NCBI GenBank assembly: GCA_903821685.1 | Contig: CAIJLW010000013.1 | Coordinates: forward strand, 1-64,000 | Reading direction: 5' to 3' | Source: an uncultured Sphingomonadales bacterium | Lineage (GTDB): Bacteria; Pseudomonadota; Alphaproteobacteria; Sphingomonadales; Sphingomonadaceae | Length of the DNA: 64,000 bases | In this document: positions 25,459 to 29,524 of the stretch, piece by piece | How the letters are laid out: each line of letters begins with the position of its first letter | How positions within the stretch are numbered: position 1 is the first letter of the stretch | Translations under genes and position numbers: made by a program | The notes under the pieces: generated by a model | Told to the model about the DNA's origin: nothing | The model's input: the letters and a program-made list of their open reading frames with translations, nothing else | Databases searched by the model: none

Positions 25459-27038
25459 TAGCGTTTTGCCGTTTTGGCACAGGGAAGCGCGATTTCGAAG
25501 CATGCCCCGTCCTTACCATCAACGCGATCGCGCACCATGATGCGGCCATGATGCCCTTCGATGATTGTGCGGGCAATTGCGAGGCCAAGCCCGCTATGCT
25601 TGCCGAAATTCTCTGATGCAGGCCGTTCGCTGTGGAAACGACGAAAAATGGCCTCGCGTTCTTGAGCCGGGACGCCTGGCCCTTCGTCGCTAATGCGGAT
25701 AACAACTTCAGCGTCGGCTAGTGTCGCGGAGATTTCGACCACTGATCCGGGAGGCGAAAAGGACACCGCGTTGTCGATTAAATTGGTCAGCATCCTCTCA
25801 AGCCGAACATCTTCACCCATCACCGTAGCGATCGACCTTCGCGGCCTTGCGAACGCAATAGTCACATTTTTGTCGCTTGCCCTATCCTCACGCGCCTGAA
25901 GCAATTGTTCGATCATGTCGCCCAGATCAATCGGCTCGAACTTTGCCTTGGCAAGTTGCGAGTCCACACGGCTCGCGTCGGAGATGTCGCTTATTAAACG
26001 GTCCATACGCTGAACGTCCGCCTTCGCGACGTCCATCAACTGTTTGCGCAACTTTGGATCGTCAATCCGCTCTGCGCCATCCAGCGCAGATCGCAGCGAT
26101 GCCAGAGGGTTTTTGATTTCATGCGCGACATCCGCCGCAAATGCTTCGGTTGCGTCAATGCGTTGGCGAAGGGCGATGCTCATGTCGGACAAAGCGCGTG
26201 CCAACATCCCAATCTCATCGCGGCGCGAGGGCAGGCGCGGGACCGTAACCTCTTGCGCTCGTCCGAGCCTTACCTTGACCGCGGCACGAGAAAGATGGCG
26301 CAAGGGTCGCACAATCGTGCGGGCCAGAAATGTCGATAGTAAAATACCAATACCCAGTGCGAATAAGAAAAACATGCCGATGTTAAACCGTTCGGCACGG
26401 ACAAAGAGCCGGATATCGCGCTCGTTCGATGTAGTGAGGACAGTGTAACTTCGGTCTGGAGATTGCGACGCAGCGCTTATCATATGGGTTAGGTCAGGGG
26501 CAAAACGCACCACGGACGAAGCCTTGGATGGCTTAGCGGTGGTTAATTCCGGCCAAGCTCCTTTCGTGTCGGATCTGGGTTCAATAAACGGTTGAAGCGC
26601 CTGAGCGCCCACTAGAAAGTCGAATAGCCGGTCAATCCCGCGCGCGGCGACTTTAGGCCATGGTTCACGGTCTGGGTCGCGAAAGACATAGGTCGGCCGT
26701 TGATTGGCGAAACTATCGAGGATCTTAGTACCTTTTCGGTCGTAAATGCGAATGCGCGACTGGTTTTGCTGACCGAACTGGATGACATAAGCTGCTCTGT
26801 TTTCTTGGGCTACTAGAGGCAAGCTGCGGGCCAGAAAAGTGGCTTGGTTACGCGCGGTCTGTTCGCGCTCGGCAATTAACCGCACGCGGTAGCTGTCGAG
26901 GAAAAATAGCCCTGCGCCGAGCAACGCCAAAACGAACAGGTTTACAGCAAGGATTCGGGTGGTTAGCGATAACCCCCGGCTCCATCCCAGCTGTAGATCA
27001 GCGGGCTCAACTGTCGGCGAAGCGATATCCGGCCCCAT
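25458..27038 (-). CDS. chvG: Sensor histidine kinase ChvG
   Basis: A 526-aa membrane histidine kinase. Transmembrane segments near residues 28-48 and about 240-260 flank a periplasmic sensor domain; a HAMP domain ([12 protein letters not shown]) leads to the dimerisation helix with His306 in [10 protein letters not shown], then the ATP-binding domain ([26 protein letters not shown]). Partnered with ChvI, it senses acid or envelope signals in rhizobia and Brucella (BvrS). The ATG at 27038 overlaps the chvI 3' end by 32 bases; the longer frame to 27155 is judged artefactual. It is followed by hprK with a one-base overlap. Confidence 0.92.
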
Positions 27039-27714
27039 AAAGCGTATCGATTGCGGTGAATTCGGGGTCAATTTCGCGGAATTTACGGCGTAGCCTTTTG
27101 ATGTGGCTGTCGATGGTGCGATCATCGACATATACATCGTCCTGATAGGCGGCATCCATCAATTGGTCGCGGGTGCGGACAACGCCTGGTCGGATAGCTA
27201 ACGCCTCAAGGATCATGAACTCGGTTACAGTCAGCGTAAGCGACTGCCCATCCCATTTGACCTGATGGCGGGCTGGGTCCATTTCCAGCTTTCCGCGCAT
27301 CATTGGTTCGGGTTCGGATCCTGCTTCGCCATTAACGATCGCCTTGTCATAGGTTGCGCGTCGTAAAATGGCCTTCACGCGTGCGATTAACAAACGCTGC
27401 GAAAATGGCTTCGTGATGTAATCATCGGCGCCCATGGCAAGGCCAAGGGCTTCATCAAGTTCTTCATCTTTCGATGTCAGGAAAATGACGGGCATGTCAC
27501 TTTTTTCGCGCAACCGCCGTAGCAGCTCTAACCCGTCCATCCGGGGCATTTTGATATCGAAAATACCCAAATCAGCCGGGTTCTCCAGCAGTGCCTTCAA
27601 CGCAGTCTCTCCATCCGAATAAATCCGGGTCACATATCCTTCCGCCTGCATCGCAATGGACACAGAGGTTAGGATATTCCGGTCATCGTCGACCAAGGCG
27701 ATATGGGCACTCAT
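27007..27714 (-). CDS. chvI: Response regulator ChvI
   Basis: A 235-aa OmpR-family response regulator. The receiver carries the acidic pocket DDD (residues 9-11), Asp53 in [10 protein letters not shown] and the KPF lysine; the winged-helix DNA-binding domain ends with the recognisable [19 protein letters not shown]. The frame is open for another 231 codons upstream, across pckA on the opposite strand, but the receiver begins right after the ATG at 27714, so that is the start. It is divergent from pckA with 193 bases between them, the same arrangement known in Agrobacterium. Confidence 0.94.
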
Positions 27715-27860
27715 CCCGCGGTTATAGTCAGGCAAGGGCTTGGGTTCAATGCATTGCTCTTTAAAGGCATAGTCTTCCGTGGATAACGTTTTTCTCGTCA
27801 AATCCATCCGCCCCCTCATTTGACCTTGCTCTACGCATCGTATACCGGCGGCACCTTCCT

Positions 27861-27880
27861 TGGTGCATACGTATGCACCA
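27861..27880. promoter_or_regulatory. Perfect 20-base palindrome upstream of pckA
   Basis: TGGTGCATACGTATGCACCA is a perfect palindrome with a central CG, lying 27 bases before the pckA start codon and 146 bases before the chvI start. Even-length palindromes with a central CG are typical operators of LacI-family repressors, and such a repressor (PckR) is known to control pckA in Sinorhizobium. The regulator here is not identified. Confidence 0.6.
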
Positions 27881-27907: not shown

Positions 27908-29524
27908 ATGTCGACACCACTGAATATCGCACTTTCACAACAGGGTTTCGGCACAAATGCAGAGCTGCATTGCAATTTAGGCACCGCCCAGCTGGTTGAG
28001 GCAGCGCTTGCGAATAAAGAGGGGATAATGGCTAAGGATGGCCCGTTGGTGGTCAAGACCGGCTTGCATACGGGGCGCTCGGCAAAGGATAAATATATTG
28101 TTCGCGATGCCGAAACCGAAAACAGCATTTGGTGGGGCAAAACCAATGTGGGGATGGACCCCGCACATTTTGCTGCATTGAAAGAGGATTTTATCGCAGC
28201 TTTGGGCGGCAAGGACAAATTATACGTCGCTGACCTGTTCGGTGGTTCGCAACCGGAACACCGTGTTAACGTCCGCGTGATCAATGAATTTGCTTGGCAC
28301 AACCTCTTCATTCGCACTTTGCTTGTACGGCCCACGCAGCATGAATTAGCCGGCTTTGTGCCCGAATATACAATCATCGATTTGCCAAGTTTCCGCGCAG
28401 ACCCCACACGTCATGGTTGCCGCAGCGAAACGGTTGTCGCGGTCAATTTTACCGAGAAGCTTATTCTTATTGGCGGCACCGCTTATGCGGGCGAAATGAA
28501 GAAGTCCGTGTTTGGCATTCTCAATTATCTTCTGCCGGTAAAGGGCGTGATGCCCATGCACTGTTCGGCCAATATCGGCGCCGATGGCCATACTGCCGTC
28601 TTTTTTGGCCTGTCGGGCACGGGCAAGACAACATTGTCCGCCGACGCCAGCCGCACGTTGATTGGTGACGATGAACATGGTTGGTCGGACACCGCTGTGT
28701 TCAACTTCGAAGGCGGTTGCTACGCCAAGATGATTCGTTTGTCCCCTGAAGCCGAGCCAGAGATCTTTGCCACGACAAAGCGTTTTGGCACTGTACTCGA
28801 AAATGTTGTTATTGACCCGGAAACGCGTGAGCTTGATTTCGACGATAACAGCCTTGCGGAAAACAGCCGCGGTTCATACCCAATTGAATTCATTCCGAAC
28901 ACATCGGAAAAGAATATGGGCCCAGTGCCCAACACGATCATTTTCCTGACCGCTGACGCATATGGCGTGCTTCCGCCCATCGCGCGGCTTACGCCCGATC
29001 AGGCGATGTATCATTTTCTGTCAGGTTACACAGCGCGTGTGGCGGGAACAGAGATTGGTGTGACTGAACCGGAGGCGACATTTTCCACCTGCTTCGGCGC
29101 GCCATTCATGCCGCGTCATCCAAGCATTTACGGCAATTTGCTAAAGGAACGTATTGCCAAGGGCAATGTGCAGTGCTGGCTGGTTAACACGGGCTGGACG
29201 GGTGGTAAGGCCACGATGCCGGGCATTAACCGTATGCCGATTAAAGCGACGCGCGCGCTGCTTAATGCTGCGCTTGACGGCAGCCTCAATAATGCAGAAT
29301 TCCGAATGGACCCCAACTTTGGATTTGAATTTCCGGTTGCGGTCCCCGGTGTCGACAGTGGCATTCTTGACCCACGTGCCGCATGGGCAGACAGTGCGGA
29401 ATATGATGTGACTGCGCAAAAATTGGTGCAGCAATTCATCGACAATTTCGCGCAATTTGCCGACCATGTCGATGAAGGTGTAAAACAATCGGCACCCAAG
29501 GCAGCTGAACGCGTCCGAACATGA
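27908..29524 (+). CDS. pckA: Phosphoenolpyruvate carboxykinase (ATP)
   Basis: A 538-aa ATP-type PEP carboxykinase, which converts oxaloacetate to PEP at the entry to gluconeogenesis. The P-loop GLSGTGKT is at residues 234-241, preceded by MHCSANIG and followed by DDEHGWSD with the metal-binding Asp; NTGWTGG and the arginine region [13 protein letters not shown] are also present. The ATG at 27908 starts the family N-terminus MSTPLN; the open frame continues to 27860 but would read through the palindrome. Divergent chvI and the upstream operator suggest regulated expression. Confidence 0.97.

Follow-up and report, generated by a model that had tools for sequence, protein, structure and literature searches.

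A conserved palindrome ahead of pckA in sphingomonads as a putative operator of a LacI-family regulator

A perfect palindrome lies between pckA and a divergent chvI-like gene in the window, the whole 64,000-nucleotide stretch of DNA that was analysed here. The features of this intergenic region and the flanking genes are as follows.

27007–27714, minus strand: chvI-like response regulator gene (PF00072, PF00486; named chvI by reading), divergent neighbour, probably not a target
27820–27825, plus strand: putative −35 element TTGACC of pckA; TTTGAC[CG] is kept 44–46 bp before the core in 34/34 motif-bearing genus sequences
27843–27848, plus strand: putative −10 element TACCGG of pckA; the 17-bp spacing is kept, with TACCGG in 25/34 and TAnnnG in the rest
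27861–27880, no strand: 20-bp perfect palindrome, putative LacI-family operator; exact sequence, one near copy in the genome
27864–27877, no strand: conserved operator core TGCATACGTATGCA, with the 12-bp core GCATACGTATGC at 27865–27876
27908–29524, plus strand: pckA, ATP-dependent phosphoenolpyruvate carboxykinase (PF01293 at 8.7e-213), proposed regulated gene

The palindrome TGGTGCATACGTATGCACCA consists of two 10-nt arms that are 100% complementary without a spacer and, with the pckA ATG at 27908, leaves 27 bases to the start codon, as the first-pass annotation had described. It was the longest perfect palindrome of the window, two others having 8-bp arms, and the window held a single match to it at ≤3 mismatches. 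One other copy at ≤3 mismatches (1 mismatch) was found in the 2.12-Mb genome, ahead of fda. Symmetry alone was not significant and is weak evidence, because a perfect palindrome of at least 20 bp was also present in 10 of 40 simulated 64-kb windows (first-order Markov); the place of the site and its conservation are significant. The conserved part spans 12–14 bp, and the outer bases that complete the perfect 20-mer differ among species. Even LacI palindromes of 16–22 nt are described as marked by a central CG (PMC4052901), and the site, at 20 nt with a CG centre, has this form; the centre was CC in 8 genus relatives.

The genus was taken as Sphingorhabdus because the nearest named record was Sphingorhabdus sp. 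EL138 (L181), whose PckA was 95% identical, and the genus set comprised 45 genomes, the source genome included. A total of 53 exact occurrences of the 12-bp core were found in 29 of these 45 genomes, compared with 0 for a reversed control pattern. Of these, 25 were at pckA and 26 at fda. The remaining 2 had a LacI gene on one side and an MFS transporter gene on the other, and came from genomes without a detected pckA (G030 and G028). Distinct contexts of the core numbered 24 at pckA, 25 at fda and 2 elsewhere; the fda contexts were gathered through core matches and so do not form a motif-blind set. Among 36 distinct genus pckA upstream sequences, the core was exact in 25, CC-centred (GCATACCTATGC) in 8, altered by one mismatch in 1 and absent from 2. 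At one locus (L106, G067:C98) the start of pckA shared 98% identity with the window protein, yet the operator was CC-centred, so even very close relatives can differ in the operator centre.

Beyond the genus, we collected 80 named pckA loci, a few of them from the same genus (L181, L182, L251 and L260), and scored 79, L224 being left out for its missing 5' end. A related motif preceded pckA in 37 of the 79 (best match within 320 bp). Mismatches were counted over 14 positions; 27/79 loci had ≤2 and 34/79 had ≤3, and three Novosphingobium loci with 4 complete the 37. With uniform bases we calculate that chance would give about 1 match at ≤3 mismatches and about 8 for 4, and the case for the three Novosphingobium loci therefore rests on shared sequence and position; L247, with 4 mismatches at 296 bp, was scored as having no motif. 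One sphingomonad MAG (L197) carried three tandem motif-like copies about 120 bp before pckA. The motif thus precedes pckA in relatives both near and more remote, and it was found ahead of one other gluconeogenic gene, fda. Its absence from the pckA promoters of close relatives had been named in the first-pass annotation as a test for refuting the idea; it was not absent, and that test did not refute it.

All 34 genus sequences that carry the core, exact or variant, shared a promoter-like module of TTTGAC[CG], 17 bases and TAnnnG, which was recognised by comparing the genus sequences and is itself putative. TTGAC preceded the core by 44–46 bp in 34/34, the core-to-ATG distance ranged over 25–46 bp, and the site is accordingly described here as phased to the predicted promoter and not to the ATG. 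The two core-less genus pckA upstream sequences still carried the TTTGAC module, and an E. coli-type promoter scan returned nothing at pckA or fda. Among the 37 motif-bearing named loci, TTGA[CT] lay 43–46 bp before the core in 27 and TTGAC 104–106 bp from it in five Sphingopyxis loci; in the other five the TTGA[CT] distance was 34, 37, 40 or 113 bp, or there was none. With a start predicted from the comparison near 27855, 7 bp beyond the −10 element, the palindrome would span about +7 to +26. Because the site falls just after the conserved promoter-like module, we propose a repressor position; the earlier suggestion of a blocking site is supported to the extent that, from its promoter phase, a bound protein is predicted to hinder initiation or early elongation.

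The second copy precedes fda, a class I fructose-bisphosphate aldolase gene (PF00274) that follows a pgk-like gene (pgk by reading). The end of the 20-mer lay 21–22 bp from the fda ATG, the fda 20-mer of this genome follows a terminator-like hairpin after pgk, and no promoter was recognised upstream of fda in this genome. A chvI-like gene was divergent to pckA in 76 of the 80 named loci, at 133–521 bp in 75 and at 1,715 bp in one. This is an old neighbourhood, and nothing was found that ties the operator to chvI. The proposal that carbon and envelope signals may meet in this region was therefore not supported, as the position of the site follows the pckA promoter and the site recurs before fda without chvI (the fda neighbour was pgk in the loci read, L002, L013, L015 and L117).

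The likely regulator of the palindrome in this genome, judged from the sequences compared below, is P0002, a 338-aa LacI-family protein (G000:C35:30668-31681) encoded just after alanine dehydrogenase (ald). It carries a LacI DNA-binding domain (PF00356, 42.6 bits, above the cut-off of 27) and a periplasmic-binding-protein-like effector domain (PF13377 at 98 bits, PF00532 at 44 bits), and most of the protein aligns to the structures of PurR and LacI. Besides P0002, this genome contains one other LacI-family gene, L003, which lies beside a glycosidase-like gene (by reading) and was set aside because G017 (93% complete) has both sites and the P0002 ortholog as the single LacI gene found. Relatives of P0002 were present among the 45 genus genomes at 71–100% identity in 28 and at 45–47% in 7, and 33 of the 34 genus genomes with a pckA motif also had a P0002-like LacI protein. 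The exception, G023, had both sites and no P0002 relative was found in it; ald was missing there too, and the two genes may have been lost together or fallen into an assembly gap. No P0002 relative was found at E ≤ 1e-30 in G012 and G066, which are without the pckA motif. Four further genomes (G011, G013, G022 and G035) had neither pckA nor a close P0002 relative among the sequences found (a 31% match only in G035), and in these pckA and the regulator look as if they had been lost together.

Across 50 named genomes, covering 33 of the 37 named loci with the motif and 17 of the 42 without it, the motif was present in 32/37 genomes with the LacI group and 1/13 without it. Divided by the LacI tree, the pckA motif occurred in 21/21 genomes with clade AB, which includes P0002, in 11/16 with clade C only, and in 1/13 with neither, where "neither" denotes E-values weaker than 1e-60 and only L353 of its weak matches was placed on the tree. 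Exceptions ran in both directions, as G303 had a pckA motif without a P0002-type LacI protein and 5/16 clade-C-only genomes were without the motif. Either clade against neither gave a Fisher P = 6e-7; Fisher P values here are inflated because 29 of the 76 AB loci are near-identical and from one genus. When 9 independent pairs were drawn on the PckA tree, about 5.5 agreed, 0.1 opposed and 3.4 tied, with a median P of 0.06, and the association corrected for relatedness is only suggestive. Because the LacI tree was built quickly and contains long branches (L302, L311, L266, L264 and L301), it places P0002 with clade B only tentatively.

The regulator had been expected to carry the palindrome at its own promoter. 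This mark was missing from P0002's clade, in which 0/76 loci had the motif within 450 bp of the LacI gene itself (0.064 expected with uniform bases), and a 14-mer scan of 86 LacI loci found no motif. It was present in the sister clade C, where GNATACGTATNC occurred within 450 bp outside the gene in 22/29 loci (0.025 expected with uniform bases; L354, identical to L309, excluded). P0002 and clade C have the recognition helix GVSQPTVSRAL in common, and this together with the motif beside clade C genes ties the motif to such LacI proteins independently of pckA. The central CG, the co-occurrence with a LacI subfamily and the motif beside sister-clade LacI genes are consistent with the operator being of LacI type, as first suspected. 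The TTGAC phase was not found in clade C loci, and no strict rule connected the recognition-helix letter (P or S) with the letters of the site. Neighbours of clade C genes in the loci read were MFS transporters (L035, L310 and L315), TonB receptors (L305 and L312) and an alpha-amylase (L307), from which we guess that maltose or related glucans are under clade C control.

We consider it likely that a LacI-family repressor uses the palindrome as its operator and governs pckA together with, as far as was seen in the genus, only fda. From the site, its conservation, its phase and its association with LacI proteins, we infer a start site, binding, repression and an effector in the following form: P0002 would occupy the two TGCATAC half-sites as a dimer, at about +7 to +26 relative to the pckA start, the bound dimer would block initiation or promoter escape, and the repressor would come off the DNA once a shift in carbon source alters its effector. 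Many LacI proteins are released from DNA by a sugar. Such release would be odd for a gluconeogenic gene, and a co-repressor or an inducer made from organic acids would fit better. It is physiologically puzzling that a LacI protein with sugar-uptake kin should repress gluconeogenesis, and the repressor reading is weakest on this point. Physiology is better served if the same LacI protein activates pckA from the same site, like PckR, CceR/GapR and Cra in other lineages; pckA activation is predicted for PckR in the account of PMC4052901, and deletion of cceR in Paracoccus is described as lowering PckA and Fba (PMC11323563). We nevertheless regard activation as unlikely, as the site lies downstream of the putative promoter module, with the TTGAC spacing held at 44–46 bp in 34/34 genus sequences and 43–46 bp in 27/37 named loci.

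The two genomes with the motif and without the LacI group (G303 and G023) would suit a regulator of another family, such as GntR or TetR, with LacI co-occurrence a coincidence; the motif beside 22/29 clade C LacI genes, the co-occurrence itself and the central CG make this improbable. The site is predicted to lie inside the transcript and its core could self-pair, so it might instead fold into a hairpin within the leader of the pckA transcript and influence translation or stability. Most outer pairs were, however, no more complementary than shuffles (25 pckA and 23 fda contexts), 2 of 16 being clearly above them (the third pair at pckA, 0.68 vs 0.37, and the second at fda, 0.43 vs 0.20). An RNA element is also at odds with a phase kept to the promoter and not to the ATG, leaves the LacI association unexplained, and appears very improbable to us. 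A functionless palindrome arising by chance, for which the 10 in 40 simulated windows with perfect 20-bp palindromes would speak, was rejected, as it is contradicted by conservation: 51 of the 53 exact genus cores lie at pckA or fda, and the motif recurs at pckA in the family.

With a LacI-family repressor as the preferred reading, we regard the site as a new example of a familiar type of metabolic switch. The main lac operator is a palindrome just after the transcription start, and the site resembles this target of the Lac repressor in being a palindromic operator just past a (here predicted) start, with the difference that one site was seen per target. Comparable systems are described in other Alphaproteobacteria. 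PckR, reported with orthologs in Rhizobiales only (SMc02975 in S. meliloti), is likewise a LacI-family regulator of pckA and fba among central carbon genes, but is a predicted activator of pckA whose regulon numbers 14 to 28 genes in each genome for three out of four families, in contrast to two targets and a repressor position here (PMC4052901). GapR/CceR of Rhodobacteraceae is also of the LacI family and has a 20-bp palindrome with pckA and fba as targets, a likeness drawn from its description; it differs in a broader regulon and in activation in Paracoccus (PMC4052901, PMC11323563). GluR of Caulobacter shares the family, a 20-bp palindrome and central carbon targets, but is described with glycolytic genes, ppdK and sucABCD as targets and not pckA, and gluR carries its own site, unlike P0002's clade (PMC4052901). 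The main text of that paper, on PckR, GapR and GluR in three other lineages, does not contain the string "sphingo"; transcription starts, Novosphingobium included, are the subject of PMC7471390. No treatment of a sphingomonad pckA operator was recognised in the literature searched, which covered a minority of subscription journals.

Sphingomonads thereby gain a concrete candidate for a switch between degrading and synthesising sugars, for which a site, two targets and a regulator can be named. It would add a fourth alphaproteobacterial lineage to the three described with LacI regulators of central carbon metabolism (PMC4052901), apparently with the opposite sign at pckA, and the target set is small enough for a test with two reporters. 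As a joint proposal that we hold to be quite possible, short of probable, sphingomonads would control gluconeogenesis in reverse of other Alphaproteobacteria, with a LacI repressor in place of an activator on pckA and an operator code common with LacI regulators of sugar uptake (MFS transporter, TonB receptor, amylase); in clade-C-only species, one sugar-locus regulator may govern pckA as well, and in the small Sphingorhabdus genomes the circuit would have shrunk to pckA and fda.

A larger regulon within the genus was rejected. One-mismatch matches to the 12-mer occurred at 11 places in 8 genomes vs 9 for the reversed control, and 9 of the 11 were inside open reading frames, the other 2 (L326 and L330) lying between them. 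CC-centred matches numbered 14 over 10 genomes, of which pckA accounted for 8, fda for 1 and other places for 5; the reversed control gave 2. The same small hypothetical gene had an upstream motif in three genomes (near position 1501 in both L108 and L121 and near 964 in L326) and is possibly a third target. In L108 and L121, where a ctaA-like gene (by reading) adjoins it, the motif was CC-centred GCATACCTATGC, with the strand differing between the two; L326 had the near-core GCATTCGTATGC. A CC-centred motif was also observed near position 1501 of L115 and L119 (G032 and G061), upstream of a TonB-receptor-like gene (by reading).
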